Below, one piece after another: positions 49,207 to 59,501 of a stretch of 64,000 nt of DNA (its first letter is position 1; the number at the start of each line of letters is the position of its first letter). The notes beneath the pieces are model-generated. The model had not been told where the DNA came from and did no database searches. It saw nothing but the letters and a program-made list of their open reading frames with translations. Source of the DNA: Candidatus Sulfotelmatobacter sp. (lineage in GTDB: Bacteria; Vulcanimicrobiota; Vulcanimicrobiia; Vulcanimicrobiales; Vulcanimicrobiaceae); the NCBI GenBank assembly GCA_035504415.1, contig DATJRY010000017.1:397263-461262 (forward strand), written 5' to 3'. A program made the translations under genes and the position numbers.

Positions 49207-49244
49207 CCGAAACCGAACATAGGCGAACGGGTTGGGAAGAGACC

Positions 49245-49284
49245 GTTCGCGACGCGTTCACCCGGCCGGGAGAGAATCGGGCGC
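49245..49284 (+). promoter_or_regulatory. Direct-repeat promoter of the small protein gene at 49285
   Basis: GTTCGCGACGC (49245-49255) and GTTCACCCGGC (49256-49266) are adjacent 11-bp direct repeats. They start 27 and 16 bp before the -10-like hexamer GAGAAT (49272-49277), which is 7 bp before the ATG. No ribosome site is present. Also GCGAACGG/CCGTTCGC (49223-49230, 49243-49250) forms a perfect inverted repeat with a 12-bp spacer that overlaps the first direct repeat. Confidence 0.65.
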
Positions 49285-49692
49285 ATGCTTGGGTTCGACC
49301 GGCTCGACCTCCACGCCCACACCGCTGCCCACGGCGCGTTCGCGCAGGCACGCGACCTTTCGGTCGCGCTCCCCGTCGTCGCCTGGCTGGTGGAGCGCGG
49401 CGCCGCGCGCCTCGAAGGCGAGCTCGCGCCGCACGCGACGCTCGGCTTCGCGCGTACGTCCTGGTCCACGTTCGCGTTTTCCGTGACGCCTCGCTCGCAC
49501 GGCGCGGTCTACGCGGGGACCGTGCAGCTGACGACCATCGCGCCCGGTCACACGCGGCTCGTCGTTCGCGGTCACATCGCGCACGGCGCGAACAGCGATC
49601 GCGCGCGCGACCGGGACGCTGTCGAGACCTGCGTGCGCAGCGTGCTCGACCGCCTCACGCGGGAGATCCGGGACCCGAAGAACGCCGCGTGA
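49285..49692 (+). CDS. Small protein of unknown function, possibly SRPBCC-like
   Basis: A 135-residue protein with no recognised catalytic motif. FDRLDLHAHTAAHGAFAQARDL, then beta-rich TLGFARTSWSTFAFSVTP, and a C-terminal helix ETCVRSVLDRLTREI; the strand pattern and final long helix suggest a START/SRPBCC-like small-molecule fold, though this is weak. Its promoter carries the same 11-bp GTTC repeats as acetate kinase, UspA and the ba3 oxidase genes, so it probably belongs to that regulon. It lies 56 bp before the UspA gene, which has its own promoter of the same class. Confidence 0.5.
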   Translation: MLGFDRLDLHAHTAAHGAFAQARDLSVALPVVAWLVERGAARLEGELAPHATLGFARTSWSTFAFSVTPRSHGAVYAGTVQLTTIAPGHTRLVVRGHIAHGANSDRARDRDAVETCVRSVLDRLTREIRDPKNAA

Positions 49693-49709
49693 ACGCACGC
49701 TCCACGGAG

Positions 49710-49748
49710 CTTCATACGCCGTTCGCGGCCGCCGTTTAGGCTGCGGGC
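49710..49748 (+). promoter_or_regulatory. Direct-repeat promoter of uspA-phosphoketolase
   Basis: CTTCATACGCC (49710-49720) and GTTCGCGGCCG (49721-49731) are in direct-repeat register, starting 27 and 16 bp before TAGGCT (49737-49742), which is 6 bp before the ATG. Same geometry as the other cluster promoters; the first repeat is imperfect (CTTC for GTTC). No ribosome site. Confidence 0.6.
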
Positions 49749-50615
49749 ATGGACACACGGCACGTTCGTTCGATCCTCGTCCCGATGGACGGCTCAGCCG
49801 CGGCGGATGCGGCCTTCGCGCTCGCTCTGCGGCTGGCCGCGCCGGACGGCGAGGTCATCGTCACCCACGTCATCGACCGGGCCACGATCGCCGCGGAGTG
49901 CGTCACCCCGTACGGCGGCGATCCGACCCCGGTTCTCGCGGCGCTCGACGAGGACGAAGAGACGCTCCTCGAACGGGCGCGGGAGCAGGCGCACGCGGCG
50001 AACGTTCGCTGCTTGACGCTGGCGGCGGACGGCAACCCGATCCGGGAGATCTGCTCGCTGGCCCGCCAGCGGAAGGTCGACGCGATCGCGATGGGCACCC
50101 ACGGGCGCCGCGGACTCGCGCGCCTGATCCTGGGCAACACCGCGGCCGGCGTGCTGCACCAGACGGACGTCCCGACCTTCGTGGTGCACGAGGAGAGCGC
50201 CGAGCTGGCCGCCCGACCGTTCCGTCAGATTCTGGTCGCGCTCGACCCCTCGGCCGGCGCACGTAACGCCGTTCGGGCTGCGATCGATCTGGCGGCGCAC
50301 GATGGGGGAGCCGTGTTCTTCGCGCACGTGGCCGAGCGCGACGACGGCGCCGCCGAACGGCAGGCGCTGCAAGAAGGTCGCCGCCTGGCCCACGCCGCGC
50401 ACGTCTCGACCGATGCCGCGACGCTCGGCGGCGATCCGGTCGAAGCGCTGCTGGTCGCCGCCGAGACCATGCACGCCAATCTGATCGCGGTCGGCGCGCA
50501 CCGCAACGCGACGGGCGGTTTCCGCATGGGCAGCGTCGCCGAGGCGATCGCCCGCACGAGCCCGGTGCCCGTGCTCGTCGTCCCCGTCACGCCGGTCGCC
50601 GCGGCGGCGCGCTGA
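49749..50615 (+). CDS. Universal stress protein (two UspA domains)
   Basis: A 288-residue protein with tandem UspA domains (about 1-140 and 150-285). Both carry the ATP-binding pattern: GTHGRRGLARLILGNTA in the first and GAHRNATGGFRMGSVAEA in the second (G-2x-G-9x-G(S/T)-type). Such proteins are often induced by low oxygen or stationary phase. Followed by the phosphoketolase gene after 2 bp, so one mRNA. The start has no ribosome site and sits 6 bp after a -10-like element, implying leaderless translation. Confidence 0.92.
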   Translation: MDTRHVRSILVPMDGSAAADAAFALALRLAAPDGEVIVTHVIDRATIAAECVTPYGGDPTPVLAALDEDEETLLERAREQAHAANVRCLTLAADGNPIREICSLARQRKVDAIAMGTHGRRGLARLILGNTAAGVLHQTDVPTFVVHEESAELAARPFRQILVALDPSAGARNAVRAAIDLAAHDGGAVFFAHVAERDDGAAERQALQEGRRLAHAAHVSTDAATLGGDPVEALLVAAETMHANLIAVGAHRNATGGFRMGSVAEAIARTSPVPVLVVPVTPVAAAAR

Positions 50616-50617
50616 GC

Positions 50618-52984
50618 ATGGAAGCGACGCTGCTGACGACCGACGTTCGCCTCGAACGGCTCGACCGGTATTGGCGGGCAGCGAACTATCTCGCCGCAGC
50701 GCAGCTCTACCTGCGCCACAACCCGCTGCTCCGCCGTCCGCTCGAAGCGGACGACTGCAAACGGCGCGTGCTGGGCCACTGGGGCACTGTGCCGGGCTTG
50801 AATCTGATCTACGCGCACCTCAACCGGCTGATCGCCGACCGCGATCTCGACGCGATGCTGGTCGTCGGACCCGGTCACGGCGCGCCGGCCGTCTACGCCA
50901 ACCTCTACCTCGAAGGAACGCTCGGCCAGACCGACCCGCGCTATACGCGTGGCGAGGACGGGATGCAGGCGCTGCTGCGCGACTTCTCGTGGCCGGGCGG
51001 ACTGCCCAGCCACCTCACCGCGCGCACGCCCGGCACCCTGCACGAGGGCGGTGAGCTCGGCTATGCGCTCTCGCACGCGTACGGGATCGCGCTCGACGAC
51101 CCGCAGGCGTTCGTCGCGTGCGTGATCGGTGACGGCGAAGCCGAGACCGGCCCGCTGGCGGCTTCGTGGCTCTCGCACGCCTTCTGCGATCCGGCCACCA
51201 GCGGCGCGGTGCTGCCGATCCTGCACCTCAACGGCTACAAGCTGTCGGCGCCGAGCGTGCTGGCCCGCATGCCGCGTGCGACCGTGCACGACTACCTGTG
51301 CGGGATGGGATATCAGCCGCTGTTCGTCGAGGTCGACGAGGACGACGCCCGTGACACGGTGCACGCCGCGCTGTGGCGCGCGCTCGACGACGCGGCCGAC
51401 CTGCTCGACGACCGTCGCCGCCGCGCGCGGCTCGGCGCGACGCCGTTGTCGCCGCCGGTGCTGGTGCTGGTCAGCCCCAAAGGGATGACCGGCCCGCGCA
51501 CGCTCGACGGCCTGCCGGTCGAAGGGACGCCGCGCGCGCACGGCATCCCGGTCGACGATCCGTACGGCAACGCCGCCCACCGCGCGGTCGTCGAGCAGTG
51601 GCTGCGCTCGTACCGGCCCGACGAGCTCTTCAGCGCGACCGGCAACCCGATCGCCGACGTGTTGGCGTGCTTGCCGCCGCCGGCGCGACGGTTGGGGCGC
51701 AACCCGCGCGCCAACGGCGGCAACCTGCGCGTGCCGCTGAGCCTGCCGCCGATCGACGAGTATGCCACGGCGGTCGGCGCGCCCGGCGCCGCGAGCTGTT
51801 CGGCGACGCACGCCCTGGGCAATTGGCTCGCGGCGACGCTGGAAGCGAACGCCGAGCAGCGCAACCTGCGCGTCTTCTCGCCCGACGAAGCCGTTTCGAA
51901 CAAGCTCGACGGACTGTTCGACGTCACCGCGCGCGCGTGGACCCTGCCGGTCGCGTTCAGCGACACGCACCTCGCCCGCAACGGCCGCGTGATGGAGATG
52001 CTCAGCGAGCACACCTGCGAGGGCTGGATGGAAGGCTACGTCCTCTCGGGGCGGCACGGCCTGTTCGCCTCGTACGAAGGCTTCGTGCCGATCGTCGACT
52101 CGATGGTCGCGCAGTACGCCAAGTGGTTGAAAACCGCGGCCGGCGTGCCGTGGCGCGCGCCGGTCTCGGCGCTCAACTTCCTGATGACCTCGCACGTGTG
52201 GCGGCAGGAGCACAACGGGTACTCGCACCAAGGCCCGGGCTTCGTCAACACGGTGCTGGAGGCGAAGGCCGACTACGTGCGCGTCTACCTCCCGCCCGAT
52301 GCCAACAGCCTGCTGTGCGTCGCCGAGCACACGCTGCGCACGACCGACCGGATCAACGTCGTCGTCGCGCCCAAGCAGGATGCGCCGCAATGGCTCGACC
52401 TGGCGGCCGCGCGCGCGCATCTCGCGCTCGGCGCGGCCCGCTGGGCATGGGCCGCCGACGACCCCGATCCCGACGTCGTGCTCGGCTGCGCCGGCGACGT
52501 GATGACGCTCGAGACGCTGGCGGCGGTCTCGCTGCTGCGCGAGCACGCGCCGTCCCTGCGCCTGCGTGTCGTCAACGTCGTCGACCTGTTCGCGCTGACC
52601 TCACCCGAGCTGCACCCACACGGCACCGGCGACGAGGCGTTCGTCGAGTTGTTCGGCACGACGCCGCCGGTGGTGTTCGCGTACCACGGATACCCGAGAA
52701 CCGTGCACGAGCTGATCTACCGCCGGCCGCGGCCGGAACGCTTCCACGTCCACGGCTACGTCGAGGAAGGATCGACGACCACGCCGTTCGACATGACCGT
52801 CCTCAACCACGCCAGCCGCTACGATCTCGCGCTCGACGTCCTGCGGCGCGCGCGCGAACGGAGCGTCGTCGTCCCCGACGCCGCGATCGCCGCGTTCGAG
52901 GGCGCGCTCGCGCGGCACGCGGCGTTCATCCGCCGCGAAGGGTACGACCTGCCGGAGGTCACGGGATGGACGTGGCGGCGCTGA
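50618..52984 (+). CDS. xfp: Phosphoketolase
   Basis: A 788-residue thiamine-diphosphate enzyme that splits xylulose 5-phosphate (and/or fructose 6-phosphate) with phosphate into acetyl phosphate plus a sugar phosphate. Signatures: [20 protein letters not shown] near residue 50, [37 protein letters not shown] and the TPP motif [12 protein letters not shown]. Length is normal for Xfp. Together with acetate kinase at 54601 it gives an acetyl-phosphate to acetate plus ATP route. Which substrate is preferred cannot be read. The 3' end overlaps the convergent hybrid kinase gene by 26 bp. Confidence 0.95.
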
Positions 52985-54515
52985 CCCCGCCGCGGCCCAG
53001 CCACAGCTCGACGACGCGGCGCAGATCGGCCAGGCGCACGGGCTTGGCCAGATAGTCGTCCATTCCGGCGGCCAGGCACGCCAAGCGATCGTCCTCGAAC
53101 GCGTTGGCGGTCATCGCCACGATCGGAACGCGCGGCGTCCCGCGCTGCGCTTCCTCCGCGCGGATGGCCCGCGTCGCCGCCAGCCCGTCGAGGACCGGCA
53201 TGTGACAGTCCATGAACACCAGCGCGACGTCGCCGTCGCGCACCGCCGCGACGGCGGCGGCGCCGTCCTCCACCATCACGACACGCACGCCGAGCCGCTC
53301 GAATTGCTGCTCGAGCACCTCGCGCAGCGCGGCGTTGTCCTCGGCGACGAGCACGCTGCCGCGGACCTCGCGCTGGGCGACGCGTTCGACCTCGCTCGCC
53401 ACGGCCGCGGCCTGCTCGAGCGCGAAGCGCGCGGTGAACCAGAAGGTCGAGCCGTGTCCCGGCGCGCTCTCGACGCCGATCTCACCGCCCATCAGCGTCG
53501 CCAGCTGGCGCGAGATCGAGAGGCCGAGTCCCGTCCCGCCGTGACGCCGCGTCGTCGAGGCGTCGGCCTGCACGAACGGCTCGAACAGCCGCTCGACGAG
53601 CGCGGGCTCGACGCCGATCCCCGTGTCCTCGACCTCGAAACGCACCACCATCTCGGCGGCGGTCGTCGCCAGCGGCACGGCGCGCACGACGATCCGGCCG
53701 CGTTCGGTGAACTTGACCGCGTTGCCGATGAGATTGAGCAGGATCTGGCGCAAGCGCCCGACATCGCCGCGCAGTGCGACCCGCACGCGCGGGTCGATGA
53801 AGGTCTGGAGCTCCACCCCCTTGGCGTGCGCCTGCGGCGTCAGCACGGCGGCGGCGTCCTCGACCACGGTCTGCATGAGCAGCTTCGTGACTTGGAGCTC
53901 GAGCGCGCCGGCCTCGATCTTCGAGAAGTCGAGCACGTCGCTGATCAGCGCCATGAGCGCCTCGGCGGAGCGGTTGATCGTCTCGACGTAGACGCGCTGG
54001 CGCGCGTCCAGGTTCGTCTCGGAGAGCAGCTCGGCGCTGCCGATGATCGCGGTCAGCGGCGTGCGCAATTCGTGGCTCATGGTGGCGACGAACTGCGACT
54101 TGACCTTCGAGGCGGCCAGCGCGCTGTCGCGCTGCGTGCGCATCTCCTGCGCGCGCTTGCGTTCGGTGATGTCGATGATCGCCGCCAGGACGAACGTGCC
54201 GTCGGGCGTTTCGACCGGGTTGAGACCGATCTCGATCGGCACCTCGGTCCCGTCGCGCCGCAGCCCGTAGAGGTCGCGGCCGGCGCCCATCGGCCGGCCG
54301 ATCGGGGCGCCCAGGTAGCCCGCTCGCAGGGCGGGATGGGCGGCGCGAAGCCGGGCCGGCACCAGCGTCTCGACCGAGCGCCCGAGCAGCTCCTCGTGGT
54401 CGTATCCGAAGAGGCGCTCACCCTGCTCGTTGACGAGCACGATCGCGCCGGCGTCGTCGGCGACGACGATCGCGACCGGCGCGGCATGGACGATCAGCCG
54501 CAGATGATCCCGCAT
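52959..54515 (-). CDS. PAS-containing hybrid histidine kinase with receiver domain, no Hpt
   Basis: A 518-residue cytoplasmic kinase. One PAS domain (about 5-118, [21 protein letters not shown], DITERK end), a HisKA domain with His148 in [12 protein letters not shown], an ATPase domain ([30 protein letters not shown]) and a C-terminal receiver with Asp436 ([11 protein letters not shown], then a conserved Thr and Lys). It ends right after the receiver, so there is no Hpt domain. No membrane helix, so the signal is intracellular. Start: ATG at 54515 with GGGGGAGG upstream; a GTG at 54536 is possible. Partners likely encoded nearby: the 63-residue H-box protein and OmpR-type regulator. Confidence 0.9.
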
Positions 54516-54549
54516 CGGACACGCAACCTCCCCCACCGCGGCGAACGAC

Positions 54550-54600
54550 GTTCACCTCGGGTTCCACCCAAGTTCACCGCGGGGACGCACGATCTCCCGC
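54550..54600 (+). promoter_or_regulatory. Direct-repeat promoter of acetate kinase
   Basis: Three adjacent 11-bp repeats: GTTCACCTCGG (54550-54560), GTTCCACCCAA (54561-54571), GTTCACCGCGG (54572-54582). They start 38, 27 and 16 bp before CACGAT (54588-54593), which is 7 bp before the GTG. The clearest example of the class found in this cluster. GAACGACGTTC (54543-54553) is also an inverted repeat overlapping the first unit. Confidence 0.7.
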
Positions 54601-55767
54601 GTGCAGTTCCTCACCGTCAACGCCGGCTCGACCTCGGTCAAGGTCGAGCGATACGAGCTGGCGTCGGGTACGCTTCCCTCGCTCGACGAACCACCGGCGG
54701 CCGTCCTCAGCCGCTGCTTCGCTCCGACCGCGGCGGAGGAGGTGCTGCCGGCGCTGCTGCGCGACGGCGACGTGGTCGCCCATCGCGTCGTGGCCGTGCC
54801 GCCCGATTGGAACGCGGTCACGACGTTCGACGCCGCCGCCGCCGATCGGATGGGGACCGCTGCCGGCAGCGCGCCGCTGCACGACGCGCTCGCGTTGCGG
54901 CTGCGCGCCGTGGTCGCGCACGCGGACCCGACGGTCGTACAGGTCGCCGTCGCCGACAGCGCGTTCCACCGCACCTTGCCGGCTGCCGCCACGACCTACG
55001 CGGTCCCGCGCGCATGGACGCGGGTGGGCCTGCGGCGCCGCGGCTATCACGGCTTGAGCCATGAGTACGCGGTGCACCGCGGCGCGCGGCTCGCCGGTCT
55101 GGACGTCCGGCGCTGCCGCGCGGCGACGCTGCACCTCGGCGGCGGGTCGTCGCTGTGCGCGATTCGCGACGGGGCCAGCATCGATACGACGATGGGGCTG
55201 ACCCCGCTCGAGGGGGTTCCGATGGCGACGCGCTGCGGCGCGGTCGATCCGGGCCTCCTGCTCGAGGCGTTGCGGCGCGGCGCGACGCCCGCCTCGCTCG
55301 AGCGCATTCTCGAGCGGGAGTCCGGCCTGCTGGGTATCTCGGGCCGCAGCGGCGACGTGCGCGTCCTGCTCGATGCCGCCGACGATCCCGATGCGCGCTT
55401 GGCGCTCGACGTCTTGGCCTGGCGGGTGCGCACGTCGTTGGGCGCGATCGTGGCCGCGCTGGGCCGCGTCGACCTGGTCGTCTTCACCGGCGGGATCGGC
55501 GAGAACGTGCCGGCGCTGCGCGCCGCGGCGATCGCGGGACTCGAAGGGCACGGCGCGCAGCTCGACGAGCGGGTCAATCGCCACCAAGGCGGGGACGGTC
55601 GGATCGACGCGGCGTCGAGCACGATCGCCGTCGCGGTCGTCACGGCGCGGGAGGGCTGGCAGCTAGCGCGCTTCGCCGCTCGATTCCTCGCCGCGGACGG
55701 ACACTTCGCCCAAGAGGACGTCGATCTGCTCGAGCGCCCGCAGGACGAGATCCAGGCGTTCGGGTGA
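54601..55767 (+). CDS. ackA: Acetate kinase
   Basis: A 388-residue ASKHA-fold kinase converting acetyl phosphate plus ADP to acetate plus ATP (reversible). Recognised by FLTVNAGSTSVKV at the N-terminus, FHRTLPAAA with the conserved region before the YGFHG-like RRRGYHGLSHEYAV, LHLGGGSSLCAI and the phosphate motif FTGGIGENVPALR; slightly shorter than the usual 400 residues. Starts at GTG without ribosome site behind a three-repeat promoter. Uses the product of phosphoketolase encoded at 50618. The 3' end overlaps the H-box gene on the other strand by 105 bp. Confidence 0.93.
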   Translation: MQFLTVNAGSTSVKVERYELASGTLPSLDEPPAAVLSRCFAPTAAEEVLPALLRDGDVVAHRVVAVPPDWNAVTTFDAAAADRMGTAAGSAPLHDALALRLRAVVAHADPTVVQVAVADSAFHRTLPAAATTYAVPRAWTRVGLRRRGYHGLSHEYAVHRGARLAGLDVRRCRAATLHLGGGSSLCAIRDGASIDTTMGLTPLEGVPMATRCGAVDPGLLLEALRRGATPASLERILERESGLLGISGRSGDVRVLLDAADDPDARLALDVLAWRVRTSLGAIVAALGRVDLVVFTGGIGENVPALRAAAIAGLEGHGAQLDERVNRHQGGDGRIDAASSTIAVAVVTAREGWQLARFAARFLAADGHFAQEDVDLLERPQDEIQAFG

Positions 55768-55854
55768 GGGCGCGATGACGCCGTCGCGAAACGCCTCGAC
55801 GTTCGCCACCGCGACCGCCAGCTGGTTGCGGATCTCGTGCAGCGCCGCTCTCAC
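55663..55854 (-). CDS. Stand-alone histidine-phosphoacceptor (H-box) protein, 63 residues
   Basis: A 63-residue protein made only of a HisKA-like hairpin. LHEIRNQLAVAVANVEAF matches a kinase H-box (phosphoacceptor candidate His6 in HEIRN), followed by a second helix SPERLDLVLRALEQIDVLL. No ATP-binding domain follows. The GTG start overlaps the stop of the response regulator (GTGA), arguing that it is real and made with its partner. Overlaps the end of ackA antisense by 105 bp. Structurally it could act like Spo0B, a dimeric phosphotransferase evolved from a kinase, linking the hybrid kinase to the regulator. This role is inference; a degenerate kinase remnant is the alternative. Confidence 0.65.
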   Translation of the reverse strand: MRAALHEIRNQLAVAVANVEAFRDGVIAPSPERLDLVLRALEQIDVLLGEVSVRGEESSGEAR

Positions 55855-56561
55855 GCGGGTGCGATCATCTTGTAGCCCACCCCGAAGACGGTGATGACGT
55901 AGCGCGGACGTGTCGGATCGGCCTCGATGCGCGCGCGCAGGTTCGCCACGTGGCGGTCGAGCGTGCGATCGTAGACGTCGCCGTCGACGCTGACCCGCTC
56001 GATCAGCTGCTCGCGGGTCAGCGTCTGGCCGACGTGCTCGGCCAAGACGTCGAGCAGCTTGAACTGCGTCGGCGTGAGCATGACCGGTTTGCCGTCGACG
56101 GTGACTTCGTGGCCGACCGGGTCGATCGCGATCCCGCCGACGCGGCGAATCGTGCGCGCGGCGGCCGCCGGCGAGGTTGCCCCGCGCTCCGCGCGGCGCA
56201 GGACGGTTCGTACGCGCGCCACCACCTCGCGCGGACTGAACGGTTTGGCGACGTAGTCGTCGGCCCCGAGCTCCAGACCGACGACGCGGTCGATCTCCTC
56301 GCCGCGGGCGGTCAGCATGATGATCGGCACGTCACGGGTGGCTCGCACGCGGCGCAGCACGTCGGTGCCCGGAAAGCCCGGCAAGTTGATGTCCAGGATC
56401 AACAGGTCGGGGTGGTGCTGCTCGTCCAACGCGACGGCGGTCGGCCCGTCGGCGGCGCGCAGCACGCTGAAGCCGTCCTCGATCAGGTAGTGCTCGAGGA
56501 CGTCGACCAGAGCGGGCTCGTCGTCGACGAGCAGCACGGTTCGGGCACGCGCGCTTTCCAC
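55851..56561 (-). CDS. OmpR/PhoB-type response regulator
   Basis: A 236-residue two-domain regulator. The receiver (1-120) has the acidic pair in LLVDDEPA, phosphoacceptor Asp57 in LLILDINLPG, Thr84 in MLTARG and Lys107 in VAKPF. The winged helix (about 140-236) reads LTPTQFKLLDVLAEHVGQ and ends TVFGVGYKM. Members of this family bind direct repeats about 11 bp apart, exactly what is seen upstream of ackA, uspA, the ba3 oxidase and two small genes. No sensor kinase is directly linked; the H-box gene follows with a GTGA overlap. Starts at GTG 56561. I find no such repeat before its own gene. Confidence 0.9.
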   Translation of the reverse strand: MESARARTVLLVDDEPALVDVLEHYLIEDGFSVLRAADGPTAVALDEQHHPDLLILDINLPGFPGTDVLRRVRATRDVPIIMLTARGEEIDRVVGLELGADDYVAKPFSPREVVARVRTVLRRAERGATSPAAAARTIRRVGGIAIDPVGHEVTVDGKPVMLTPTQFKLLDVLAEHVGQTLTREQLIERVSVDGDVYDRTLDRHVANLRARIEADPTRPRYVITVFGVGYKMIAPA

Positions 56562-56611
56562 GGTACCCGAGCGTTCACGGGTCCGGCGCGCGCCGACCTT
56601 CTGCGCCCGCG

Positions 56612-57115
56612 TCACCCCGGACCGATGGCGGCGCGGCGGTCGGCTTTCTCCCGTTCCTCGAGCCGATAGGCGGTCTCCAAGAAGATGCCGAGGTCGTCCA
56701 ACAGTTGGCGGCAGACGCGCTCGGCGACCGCGTGGCCGACGGCCAGGTCGAACGCCGCCCCCACCGCGCCGCCCGGCGGCTCGTAGCCACCCTGCAAGTC
56801 GAGGATGCAGGACGTGTAGTCGTCGTCGCCGTCGACGCTCAGGGTGCCGTGGAAGACCGGAAACGGGCCCTGGCCGGTCGCTTGCCACGAGAGCTGGTAC
56901 GAGGCGACCATCGTCGCACGATCGTCGGCTCGCCGGATGTGCACGGCGCAGTCGCGTTCCAGCTCGAACGCGGCGAGGCCGGCGATCTCGAGCGGTGCCC
57001 GTAAGGTCAGGACGGTCTGGTCGCCGCGGCGGTGACCGGCCAGGAACCGGTCGATGAAGCCCGGCGCGAGGCCGACGGCGCAGGCGACGGGACGGCGGAG
57101 GTGCAGCTGGCTCAT
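56612..57115 (-). CDS. SRPBCC-like protein
   Basis: A 167-residue protein with a START/SRPBCC-like pattern: ELERDCAVHIRRADD, then SYQLSWQATGQGPFPVFHGTL, the segment YTSCILDLQGGYEPPGGAVG and a long C-terminal helix (FDLAVGHAVAERVCRQLLDDLG). Related proteins often lie beside UspA genes. Function unknown, probably ligand binding. The ATG at 57115 has no ribosome site; its promoter carries the GTTC repeats, divergent from that of the ba3 oxidase. Confidence 0.65.
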   Translation of the reverse strand: MSQLHLRRPVACAVGLAPGFIDRFLAGHRRGDQTVLTLRAPLEIAGLAAFELERDCAVHIRRADDRATMVASYQLSWQATGQGPFPVFHGTLSVDGDDDYTSCILDLQGGYEPPGGAVGAAFDLAVGHAVAERVCRQLLDDLGIFLETAYRLEEREKADRRAAIGPG

Positions 57116-57165
57116 GGTTCGAGCGTAACGACCGGCGCGGCACGGCTCGCGAAGGCCGCGCGAAC
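57116..57165 (-). promoter_or_regulatory. Direct-repeat promoter of the SRPBCC-like gene
   Basis: Read on the minus strand: GTTCGCGCGGC (from 57165), CTTCGCGAGCC (from 57154) and the weaker GTGCCGCGCCG (from 57143), in 11-bp steps. They start 38, 27 and 16 bp before TACGCT (57127-57122), which is 6 bp before the ATG. Same geometry as the other four. Confidence 0.6.
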
Positions 57166-57169
57166 GCCC

Positions 57170-57220
57170 GTTCACGCGCCGTTCCGAAGTTCGCCACCGA
57201 GCGCTGCTAGGCTCACCGAC
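57170..57220 (+). promoter_or_regulatory. Direct-repeat promoter of the ba3 oxidase operon
   Basis: GTTCACGCGCC (57170-57180) and GTTCCGAAGTT (57181-57191) start 38 and 27 bp before TAGGCT (57208-57213), which is 7 bp before the ATG. A third unit in the 16-bp position is degenerate. Same distances as at acetate kinase (51 and 40 bp to the start codon). Confidence 0.65.
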
Positions 57221-57361
57221 ATGCAATCTGACGACGTGCCCGTCGCGGAGACTTCCGTCGACGAGCCTCTTCCCTTGACCATGCGGTTCGTGCTGACCAT
57301 CGGCGCGTGCATCCTCGTCGGCTGGTGTCTCATGTACGCGCTGCTGCGCGCGCGGTGGTGA
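57221..57361 (+). CDS. cbaD: Small membrane subunit of ba3-type cytochrome oxidase (subunit IIa-like)
   Basis: A 46-residue protein with one predicted membrane helix (about 20-42, MRFVLTIGACILVGWCLMYALL) after an acidic N-terminus. Its size, single helix and place just before subunits II and I match subunit IIa of ba3 oxidases (the Thermus cbaD gene order is IIa, II, I). Too short for firm sequence homology, so the call rests on position and topology. Next gene starts 2 bp after its stop. Confidence 0.65.
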   Translation: MQSDDVPVAETSVDEPLPLTMRFVLTIGACILVGWCLMYALLRARW

Positions 57362-57363
57362 GG

Positions 57364-57831
57364 ATGCACGTCCACCGCCTCGAGCGCATCTGGATCGGCA
57401 TGGGCCTAGCGATGCTGGTGTTCTTCATCGCGGTGATCGCGACGTCGGCCGTCGTCGACGGCTTCGTTCCGCCCAGCCGCACGCAAACGATCGACCCGGC
57501 CAAGGTCTCCTCGACCCCGCCGTTCGACCACCCGGGTCTGCACCAGATCGGGCCCGGTCAGTACGAGGCCTACTACGTCGGACACATCTTCTCGTGGGAC
57601 CCGGCGACGATCACCGTCCCGACCGGCGCCCACGTCACCTTCTACCTGACCAGCACCGACGTGATGCACGGCTTCTCGATCCCCGAGACCGGCGTCAACG
57701 CGTCGGTCACGCCCGGCTGGGTGAACGCCGTCTCACAGACCTTCCGCAAGCCCGGCACGTACCTGGTGCTCTGCAACGAGTACTGCGGCGCCGGCCATCA
57801 GCTCATGGCCGCCAAGGTGATCGTGCAATGA
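57364..57831 (+). CDS. cbaB: ba3-type cytochrome c oxidase subunit II
   Basis: A 155-residue protein with one N-terminal membrane helix (about 10-31) and a periplasmic cupredoxin domain with the CuA site: His102 (VMHGF), then CNEYCGAGHQLM giving Cys137, Cys141, His145 and Met148. Compact size and one helix are typical of ba3 (type B) oxidases, while A-type subunit II usually has two. It receives electrons from cytochrome c. The stop overlaps the start of subunit I. Confidence 0.9.
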   Translation: MHVHRLERIWIGMGLAMLVFFIAVIATSAVVDGFVPPSRTQTIDPAKVSSTPPFDHPGLHQIGPGQYEAYYVGHIFSWDPATITVPTGAHVTFYLTSTDVMHGFSIPETGVNASVTPGWVNAVSQTFRKPGTYLVLCNEYCGAGHQLMAAKVIVQ

Positions 57832-59501
57832 GGGTCACGACCTCCCCGCGCGCCGGGTCGACCGATGCGCTCGCGCTCTCCAAGGCCGAGGGCGATCTGG
57901 TCGCGCTCAGCCACGTCTACACCGCGACGCTGGTACTCGGCCTGGGCGCGCTGTTCGGCCTGCTGCAGGGCTTCACGCGCGCGAACTGGATCGTCATGCC
58001 GGCCTGGTTCGACTACTACCGGATGCTGACCGCGCACGGCGTGCTGATGGCGCTGGTCTTCACGACGTTCTTCATCACCGGCTTGTTCACGTACTGCGTC
58101 TACCACGCGATCCCGCGGGTGCGCTCGACGCTGGTCAACCGGATCGGCTACGTCGTCATGCTGATCGGCACCGTGATGGCGACGATCACGATCCTGAGCG
58201 GGAACGCGAGCGTCCTCTACACGTTCTACGCGCCGCTCAAGGCCAGCCCGTTCTTCTATCTGGGCGCGACGCTGCTGGTGGCCGGGACCTGGTTCGTCGC
58301 CTACGACGTGTTCGAGAACGTGGTGTGGTTCAAGCGGCACCATCCCGGCGAGCGCGTCCCGCTGCCCGCGTTCATGGCGGCGACCACCATGGCGATGTGG
58401 GTGATCGCGACCCTGGGCGTCGTCGCGGAGATGCTGATCCTCTTGCCGTGGTCGCTCGGCTGGACGCCGGGCGTCGACGTCGAGCTGACCCGCATGCTGT
58501 TCTGGTACTTCGGCCACCCGCTGGTCTACTTCTGGATCATGGCGGCGTACACGATCTGGTACGCCGTCGTCCCGACGACCTACAAAGGCACCATCTTCAG
58601 CGACGCGCTGACGCGGCTGGCGTTCATCCTGCTGCTGCTGCTCTCGACGCCGGTCGGGCTGCACCACCAGTACCTCGACCCCGGCATCTCGGCGGGCTGG
58701 AAGTTTCTGCACACCGTGCTGACCTTCGGCGTCGTCGTGCCCTCGTTCATGACCGCGTTCGCGATCTTCGCCTCGTTCGAGCGCGCGGCGCGGAACGCGG
58801 GCGTGCGCGGCTTCATCGCCACCGTGCGGTGGCTGCCGTGGCGGGATCCGGTCTTCGCCGGCCCGGCGTTCGGGATGATCCTGTTCATCTTCGGCGGCTT
58901 CGGCGGCATCGTGAACAACTCGTACTCGATGGACGTGCTGGTGCACAACACGATGTGGATCGTCGGTCACTTCCACATCACGGTGGGCGGACCGGCCGCG
59001 CTGACGTTCATCGGCGCGTCGTACCGGCTCGTTCCGCAGCTGACCGGGCGGCGTCTGTTCGCGCCGAAGCTGGCGCTCACGTCGATCTACACCTGGTTCG
59101 TCGGGATGGCGGTCATGTCGCTCTCGATGCACTGGGCCGGGCTGCTGGGCGCGCCGCGGCGCACGTCCGACGTCTCGTACCTGGGCGCGCAGGCCGCGCA
59201 GCTCTGGCACCCCGAGATGGTCGGCGCGGCCGTGGGCGGCGCGCTGGTCGCACTGGGCGTGCTGTTCTTCGTGATCGTCGCGACCGGGACGTTCCTCACC
59301 GATCCGGTCCGCGACGAGCACCAGCCGGAGCTCTCGTTCGCGCCGGCCGATCCGCACGCCGGCCCGACGCCGGCGCTGTTCGACCAGACCGGCCGCTGGG
59401 CGCTGCTCGCGCTGCTGGTGGCGGTGATCTCGTACGCCGGACCGCTGGCGCAGCAGCTCGGCGCGCACGCGTACCTCGCGCCGGGCATGCGCACGTGGTA
59501 G
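57828..59501 (+). CDS. cbaA: ba3-type cytochrome c oxidase subunit I
   Basis: A 557-residue catalytic subunit with 13 or so membrane helices. Ligands are visible: low-spin heme His70 (MLTAHGVLMA) and His383, CuB His230 with crosslink Tyr234 (YFGHPLVYFW), His279-His280 (GLHHQY) and high-spin heme His381 (GHFHITVGG). Spacing equals that of Thermus ba3 (His72, 233, Tyr237, 282, 283, 384, 386) with an offset of 2-3. Type B oxidases have high oxygen affinity and lack the D channel. Reduces O2 to water and pumps protons. Confidence 0.93.
   Translation: MRVTTSPRAGSTDALALSKAEGDLVALSHVYTATLVLGLGALFGLLQGFTRANWIVMPAWFDYYRMLTAHGVLMALVFTTFFITGLFTYCVYHAIPRVRSTLVNRIGYVVMLIGTVMATITILSGNASVLYTFYAPLKASPFFYLGATLLVAGTWFVAYDVFENVVWFKRHHPGERVPLPAFMAATTMAMWVIATLGVVAEMLILLPWSLGWTPGVDVELTRMLFWYFGHPLVYFWIMAAYTIWYAVVPTTYKGTIFSDALTRLAFILLLLLSTPVGLHHQYLDPGISAGWKFLHTVLTFGVVVPSFMTAFAIFASFERAARNAGVRGFIATVRWLPWRDPVFAGPAFGMILFIFGGFGGIVNNSYSMDVLVHNTMWIVGHFHITVGGPAALTFIGASYRLVPQLTGRRLFAPKLALTSIYTWFVGMAVMSLSMHWAGLLGAPRRTSDVSYLGAQAAQLWHPEMVGAAVGGALVALGVLFFVIVATGTFLTDPVRDEHQPELSFAPADPHAGPTPALFDQTGRWALLALLVAVISYAGPLAQQLGAHAYLAPGMRTW

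Follow-up and report, generated by a model that had tools for sequence, protein, structure and literature searches.

What reads the GTTC repeats that recur ahead of five genes at one locus of a Candidatus Sulfotelmatobacter genome, and how would the protein that reads them be charged? The locus lies in a window of 64,000 nucleotides (contig DATJRY010000017.1, positions 397,263 to 461,262), the whole stretch of DNA that was analyzed. Besides the genes with repeats, it encodes an OmpR-type response regulator, a small protein with a DHp domain and no ATPase (CA) domain, and a hybrid histidine kinase (Table 1). The reading that we favor, with a probability of about 0.6, is that the repeats are switched on by the regulator of the cluster and that the DHp-only partner, as predicted from sequence, acts as a relay between the hybrid kinase and this regulator. 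A bolder claim, which we would put slightly short of even odds, is that within one family a kinase shed its ATPase domain several times, leaving a DHp of about 60 residues that would relay a FixL-like hybrid kinase to a RegX3-like regulator of a clustered, leaderless low-oxygen regulon.

A set of 60 genomes was used for comparison (G000, the window's own genome; G001 onward, relatives). From related genomes, 20 stretches were taken that surround homologues of the response regulator in the cluster, and 20 further stretches were picked partly by motif, by means of a model that included the start codon. A separate set of 80 loci with distant OmpR-type matches (best 54% identity) was not used.

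Register of the five promoters and spacing to the start codon

The original prediction had placed 11-bp direct repeats in a fixed register ahead of five genes. Read directly and scored, the five promoters bore this out, with slots beginning 38, 27 and 16 bp before a -10-like hexamer and the hexamer standing 6 or 7 nt ahead of the start codon in every case. The letters within the slots were less regular than had been proposed: exact GTTC was present in 9 of the 15 slots (11 when CTTC is counted), and the repeats were degenerate ahead of uspA and the SRPBCC-like gene. All three repeats were GTTC at ackA, as claimed, and the promoters of cbaDBA and the SRPBCC-like gene formed the divergent pair. 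Back-to-back promoters were also found in the stretches L123 (7214-/7274+), L234 (16773-/16833+) and L243 (9513-/9584+).

A start-coupled site was defined as at least 9 of 12 slot matches, a hexamer NANNNT and an ATG or GTG 5-8 nt further on. The true register gave 31 such sites in the window and the 20 homologous regions; 12 shifted registers yielded 0-4 each, and periods of 9, 10, 12 and 13 bp yielded 0-3. In the 20 further stretches 14 sites were counted, where 18 shifts yielded 0-2 and six other periods 0-3. The coupling of the operator register to the hexamer and the start codon was thus confirmed to exceed chance. The bare repeat GTTC-N7-GTTC proved unspecific (113 occurrences, 61 in the reversed control), and specificity came from the register together with the hexamer and the start codon. 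A triple STTC repeat was also tried as a discriminator among the 60 genomes and rejected as too unspecific (6 in the own genome, 1 in the reversed control).

The 29 training promoters had by selection a gap of 6-7 nt, an open reading frame of at least 38 amino acids and at least 9 of 12 matches. From their base counts the half-site consensus was approximately (G/C)TTCRC, and its sixth base, a position outside the selection, was C in 21 and 23 of the 29 promoters in the two proximal slots. The distal slot of the relatives' sites was frequently GTGAA, the reverse complement of TTCAC.

For the spacing to the start codon, a weight matrix of 46 bases ending with the hexamer was used, so built that the start codon was excluded, with a score cut-off of 17. 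It was applied to the window and to both sets of 20 stretches. After removal of the 29 training sites and of duplicates, 79 held-out sites reached this score. An ATG or GTG was found at gap 6 in 31 of them and at gap 7 in nine, and the remaining 23 gaps within 0-24 nt shared 57 start codons, kinship among the genomes being ignored in these counts. Among the 38 held-out sites from regulator-chosen loci alone, gap 6 was observed in 10 and gap 7 in four. A -10 element occupies positions -12 to -7, and a 6-nt gap would thus place +1 on the start codon. For this reason the mRNAs of the five genes are predicted to be leaderless, with RNA polymerase starting at or within one base of the start codon. 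The earlier proposal of such starts is favored by the comparative evidence, as a distance of 6-7 nt is maintained at the held-out sites. Leaderlessness as a general trait of the genome was considered and rejected: in the stretches of the own genome TANNNT preceded 4 of 1144 starts at gap 6 and 0-3 at the other gaps, and in those of the relatives 15 of 1842 and 1-7, respectively. Since this signal is weak, leaderlessness is claimed for the GTTC regulon only.

The OmpR-type regulator and the extent of the regulon

The original prediction had assigned control of these promoters to the response regulator encoded within the cluster, whose closest solved structure, for the whole protein and for the DNA-binding domain alone, was RegX3. 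It matched 102 NCBIfam models, and its score fell short of the cut-off for each of the 25 that were listed. Of the held-out profile matches, those no more than 30 kb away from the regulator made up 3 of 8 in the own genome, 8 of 13 in G001, 5 of 8 in G002, 4 of 11 in G007 and 2 of 8 in G008, with binomial tails of 5e-3 to 4e-12; profile rows with no listed position were counted as far. In relatives with the regulator, the motif was found again before homologous genes. At cbaD it was observed in G000, G002, G004, G007, G008, G009 and G024, as well as in G010 with the hexamer offset and in G025 with a 9-nt gap. It was absent from the region upstream of cbaD in the regulator-less genomes G014 and G023; in the latter a Shine-Dalgarno-like AGGA and no repeats precede cbaD, and the next oxidase subunit is 69% identical. 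In family f1, the mean number of profile matches per genome was 5.7 in the 28 genomes with the DHp gene and 1.4 in the nine lacking it, uncorrected for shared ancestry. Because the motif clusters near the regulator, is absent at cbaD where the regulator is lacking, and the phosphate genes have a regulator and repeat of their own (see below), the OmpR-type protein of the cluster is likely the activator of the five promoters. Two or three monomers would bind head to tail across the -35 region in the fashion of PhoB.

Several observations weigh against this assignment. As a control, G014 counts for little, since the gene for subunit I of its oxidase is split into two adjacent frames (L250). In G031, G047, G012 and G035, whose regulators are 53-66% identical, no motif was found at cbaD (in G012 another gene on the same strand precedes it), and G031 yielded zero profile matches in its genome. 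G005, which lacks the regulator, gave four weak profile matches, as many as the regulator-bearing G009, a count that equals the lowest among its ten sister genomes (congeners), which have 4-15. The motif was also absent from the regulator's own promoter in G000, and the genome yielded 34 OmpR-type matches, so another paralogue could bind. Such a paralogue, or an unrelated factor, might then read the GTTC repeats, the cluster regulator being a mere neighbor; the missing motif ahead of the regulator here and in most relatives read, and at cbaD in some genomes with a related regulator, would agree with this. We consider it improbable in view of the concentration of held-out sites near the regulator in five genomes, the motif-free cbaD of the two regulator-less genomes, and the PhoB-like spacing and register combined with RegX3 as the nearest solved relative. 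Autoregulation was rejected, as scores of 22-28 were found before the regulator in G010 and G037 only.

The GTTC set might also be the organism's Pho regulon with a Streptomyces-like box, since one of its genes encodes Xfp, a family that uses phosphate and yields acetyl phosphate. The PHO box is described as two 11-nt direct repeats, with the core GTTCACC in S. coelicolor (PMC4415409), and the direct repeats and GTTCACC core here match it. This interpretation was rejected as hardly credible. On C7 of the same genome the pst-like genes are grouped with genes for a regulator resembling PhoB and a kinase resembling PhoR, all named by eye, and the pstS-like gene there is preceded by a different 11-bp repeat, CCTTAATATTA-CCTTAAGGTCG-GCTTACGATGG; because these genes use another repeat, the GTTC set is not taken to be the phosphate regulon. 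The C7 and phoU stretches gave no profile match (best matrix score 11.2, cut-off 17), and the cluster regulator scored 203.9 against the NCBIfam PhoB cut-off of 296.2, as well as 169.4 against 270 and 165.8 against 471 for further curated cut-offs. The repeats of the pstS-like promoter lie at L279:6310-6350, and the start codon follows after about 50 nt.

The regulon was found to reach beyond the window and onto another contig. R1, a sequence-only model built from the 29 promoters and run on the genomes, detected 13 sites in the own genome at E ≤0.1. Five of these were training sites; of the others, three lie just past the window end (C17, 461.5-464.2 kb), two at 215-223 kb of C11 and three elsewhere. 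The best R1 site outside the window (L229:10486-10982, C11 near 215.5 kb) belongs to a relative of the SRPBCC-like gene, with repeats in three slots, the hexamer TATCGT and a 6-nt gap. In the relatives, the products behind start-coupled sites (100 sites with a matrix score of at least 9) included homologues of uspA, xfp, cbaD, the SRPBCC-like gene and the regulator. Ten products searched against Pfam comprised two GNAT proteins, a P-type cation ATPase, a pyridoxamine-oxidase-like protein, DoxD, an MmyB-like regulator, HlyD (from the own genome), a sub-threshold Usp and two proteins with no family.

Table 1. Promoters, genes and proteins of the locus, in window positions
Feature	Position	Strand	Remarks
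Promoter of 135-aa gene	49234..49287	+	GGGA/GTTC/GTTC at -38/-27/-16; GTTC 49245, 49256; GAGAAT 49272-49277; 7 nt to ATG 49285
Regulon gene, 135 aa	49285..49692	+	No Pfam family above cut-off
Promoter of uspA-xfp	49699..49751	+	GCTC 49699, CTTC 49710, GTTC 49721; TAGGCT 49737-49742; 6 nt to ATG 49749
Universal stress protein (uspA)	49749..50615	+	Two Usp stretches; regulon gene
Phosphoketolase Xfp	50618..52984	+	Directly 3' of uspA
Hybrid histidine kinase	52959..54536	-	PAS-HisKA-HATPase-REC; PAS nearest FixL heme-PAS among solved structures; proposed donor
Promoter of ackA	54550..54603	+	GTTC 54550, 54561, 54572; CACGAT 54588-54593; 7 nt to GTG 54601
Acetate kinase family protein (AckA)	54601..55767	+	Regulon gene
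DHp-only protein	55663..55854	-	63 codons from GTG 55854; stop TAG 55665-55663; H-box HEIRNQL; no ATPase domain
OmpR-type response regulator	55851..56561	-	Response_reg 2.5e-28 and Trans_reg_C 2.3e-21; likely activator
SRPBCC-like gene, 167 aa	56615..57115	-	No Pfam match; label from the original prediction; regulon gene
Promoter of SRPBCC-like gene	57113..57165	-	GTTC 57165, CTTC 57154, GTGC 57143 (descending); TACGCT 57127-57122; 6 nt to ATG 57115
Promoter of cbaDBA	57170..57223	+	GTTC 57170, 57181, CGCC 57192; TAGGCT 57208-57213; 7 nt to ATG 57221
Oxidase operon cbaDBA	57221..59501	+	46-aa subunit, CoxB-like subunit II, CoxA-like subunit I; all under NCBIfam cut-offs; regulon operon

The DHp-only protein and its candidate phosphate donor

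The start of the DHp gene overlaps the stop of the regulator gene by 4 nt, and the same overlap was present in 15 of 21 loci, including all 10 CA-less loci there. The HisKA match of the protein (E 0.0018, 18.7 bits) was under the curated Pfam cut-off of 26.9. AlphaFold predicted two helices (predicted local distance difference test, pLDDT, 90.6), for which the best Foldseek match was the DHp of PhoR, with a template modeling (TM) score of 0.81 but an E of 0.26; SrrB was also matched, at E >0.1. A length-limited search of public data returned 43 homologues of 45-70 amino acids, with source names including Candidatus Eremiobacteraeota and Elarobacter. The idea that the DHp always stands alone was discarded as an artefact of this length limit, since several relatives have a DHp+ATPase kinase of 219-248 amino acids at that place.

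When 38 regulator loci were counted, with one best regulator each, the partner was CA-less in 14, fused in one and a full kinase in 23; G006 was counted as a full kinase though its contig end cuts inside the ATPase domain, and the count excludes the tandem arrays of G037-G039, the additional copies of G028, and G053, which lies at a contig edge. Fusions of the DHp to a hybrid kinase were found in three genomes (G009, G003 and G028), and in G034 the CA-less frame extends 120 residues onward. No CA domain follows the DHp in the CA-less loci, where CA matches were otherwise in hybrid kinases; the exceptions were one weak match in L121 (E 0.36) and two in the window at 35 kb (E 0.3-0.6). In the tree of the regulators, the distribution of the CA-less state required eight changes, at least three of them forced by branches with good support, and for this reason the ATPase domain was probably lost more than once.

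L138, L241 and L243 (G037, G039 and G038) are tandem arrays of regulator and DHp or kinase genes with three regulators each. G028 (L132, L245, L269 and L270) has a full DHp+ATPase kinase near one regulator and the DHp-hybrid kinase fusions elsewhere, as well as a separate frame of 233 amino acids with DHp and PAS.

A CA-less frame could be a decaying remnant with no function. One CA-less copy in each of the arrays of G038 and G039 does have a degraded H-box, and the open reading frame overlaps the 3' end of ackA on the opposite strand, which is itself a constraint on the sequence. Decay is nevertheless very improbable, given that the core is conserved and the H-box histidine near-invariant over 44 sequences, that the ratio of nonsynonymous to synonymous differences (pN/pS) was 0.16-0.68 in 44 of 45 pairs of CA-less DHp genes (all below 1, the remaining one undefined), that the overlap with the regulator gene is maintained, and that homologues of this length recur in the public data.

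The hybrid kinase encoded in the window is the proposed donor. Orthologues of at least 400 bits were present in 11 of the 60 genomes (G000, G001, G002, G003, G004, G007, G008, G009, G010, G013 and G028); the next best match, at 383 bits, was in G015, which has neither regulator nor DHp. Nine of the 11 genomes have a CA-less DHp in the regulator clade, G009 has the fused form and G028 fused copies. In nine of the 11 the kinase gene and a regulator homologue are no more than 13 kb apart; in G004 and G010 the kinase gene is on another contig. In the 18-row regulator clade, the hybrid kinase was found in 10 of 10 genomes with a CA-less or fused DHp and in 0 of 5 with a full kinase (Fisher 3e-4, uncorrected for ancestry). 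The five are G006, G017, G024, G025 and G031; G028, which has both forms, was left out, and G003 was counted as CA-less despite also having a full-kinase locus. In G003:C221, G022:C136, G027:C14, G051:C71, G028:C79 and G058:C36, sequences matching the hybrid kinase were interrupted by one or two in-frame stops.

The PAS domain of the hybrid kinase matched FixL at E 2e-16, with a histidine and an arginine aligned to His200 and Arg220, which we take to be the heme ligand and the distal arginine of FixL. Each of the 11 kinase genomes has at least one PAS that retains both residues (in G003 through the fused copy). The hybrid kinase is therefore predicted, from this FixL-like PAS, to sense oxygen or a related gas. 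The gene content and this PAS are also the reason for which a low-oxygen function is predicted: Usp, Xfp, AckA and the terminal oxidase, together with the GNAT, P-type ATPase and pyridoxamine oxidase of the relatives, would form a low-oxygen or low-energy regulon. In the mechanism proposed, a kinase that lost its ATPase domain would have become a protein for phosphotransfer, for phosphatase activity or for both, and the stripped DHp would now be fed by the receiver domain of the hybrid kinase. Low oxygen, as the predicted signal, would act on the hybrid kinase, and phosphate would pass through its receiver and the DHp histidine to the aspartate of the regulator, which would bind the 11-bp repeats and activate transcription.

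The relay has to be set against a number of further observations. A profile of the DHp family run against solved sequences matched no DHp, and a helical hairpin of this kind is of little diagnostic value, since it can be fitted to hundreds of unrelated chains; ESCRT chains and designed bundles reach the scores of kinases. The 400-bit line was set after the scores had been seen, and neither the kinase co-occurrence nor the promoter counts were corrected for shared ancestry. A PAS histidine alone is no proof of heme, and in G004 and G008 a leucine replaces it in one of the two PAS copies. Finally, in the CA-less genomes G011, G022, G027 and G034 the neighboring PAS kinase matches without a receiver, which does not agree with a relay through a receiver; these neighbors have a leucine at the aligned arginine position.

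These receiver-less neighbors argue against one universal relay and fit a phosphatase role. The CA-less DHp may then be a phosphatase for the regulator, which would be charged by acetyl phosphate from Xfp or by other kinases, with AckA draining the pool in a metabolic feedback loop. Both uspA-xfp and ackA carry the motif promoter, and genes for the regulator, DHp and ackA are consecutive on one strand in G007, G001 and G010 (with xfp in G007). The DHp of EnvZ or NtrB needs no further domain to act as a phosphatase, a function in which the T/N of the E/DxxT/N motif is decisive (PMC3510030); the DHp here reads H-E-x-R-N. On the other side, the fusion of the DHp to the hybrid kinase in three genomes and its 10/10 versus 0/5 co-occurrence with a receiver-bearing kinase suggest partnership, and the phosphoacceptor histidine is near-invariant, although this residue also aids phosphatase activity. 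We hold such a loop to be possible, if rather unlikely; it would be compatible with the promoter part of the favored explanation. The relay and the phosphatase act may also be combined in one protein, as in PhyT.

Comparison with known systems

The cluster regulator resembles the PhoB/OmpR activators in being a two-domain protein with a winged helix and in having head-to-tail repeats of 11 nt (PMC4415409), and at the phoA promoter the repeats are described as overlapping the -35 region (PMC3348028). It differs from them in its targets, which are Usp, Xfp, AckA and an oxidase rather than phosphate genes, in the start codon 6-7 nt past the hexamer, and in the other repeat letters at the pstS-like promoter of its own genome. 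With SenX3-RegX3 of the actinobacteria it shares RegX3 as the best solved match; unlike in that system, no membrane sensor kinase is adjacent here, the partner is DHp-only and the gene set is another.

The FixL-type heme-PAS kinases are similar in their PAS domain with the aligned histidine and arginine. The kinase described here, a putative heme protein, is instead a hybrid kinase with a receiver and has no adjoining FixJ. Mycobacterial DosR, another regulator of the response to microoxia, is of the NarL type and not of the OmpR type. The genes listed together as differentially expressed in microoxic Bradyrhizobium include those for universal stress proteins, for a phosphoketolase family protein and for subunits of a cbb3 oxidase (PMC6515984). 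The regulators of its FixLJ-FixK2 system are FixJ and FixK, not OmpR-type proteins, and its boxes and promoters differ. In the open-access literature searched, no report of the GTTC regulon or of a comparable DHp-only protein was found, nor any regulatory study for the Eremiobacterota, to which the host likely belongs. The regulon would be a new member of a known promoter logic, with a clear operator code predicted for a little-studied group. In promoters of this type the activator site, the -10 and the start codon are rigidly coupled.

Spo0B is a phosphotransferase derived from a histidine kinase and is counted with ChpT and PhyT. The latter two have a DHp with a phosphoacceptor histidine and no working ATPase, and are likewise thought to derive from histidine kinases (PMC5898713, PMC3433190). 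The DHp-only protein is similar to the three in its H-box histidine, the ATPase being inactive there and absent here. ChpT is described as keeping an atypical ATPase fold (PMC3433190) and PhyT, which is bifunctional, as having a degenerated catalytic domain (PMC5898713), whereas no such domain exists in the protein described here, of which about 57-70 residues remain. It may therefore work like them, but lacking any ATPase-like domain it is not filed among them. If the relay is true, few phosphotransfer proteins derived from kinases would be smaller than this DHp of about 60 residues. Unlike those three, its close relatives still include the full kinase, so that living intermediates are at hand. 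The path from kinase to phosphotransferase has so far been argued from finished products such as Spo0B, ChpT and PhyT, and the full kinase, the bare DHp and the DHp-hybrid fusion, found beside one regulator in related genomes, make it directly testable.

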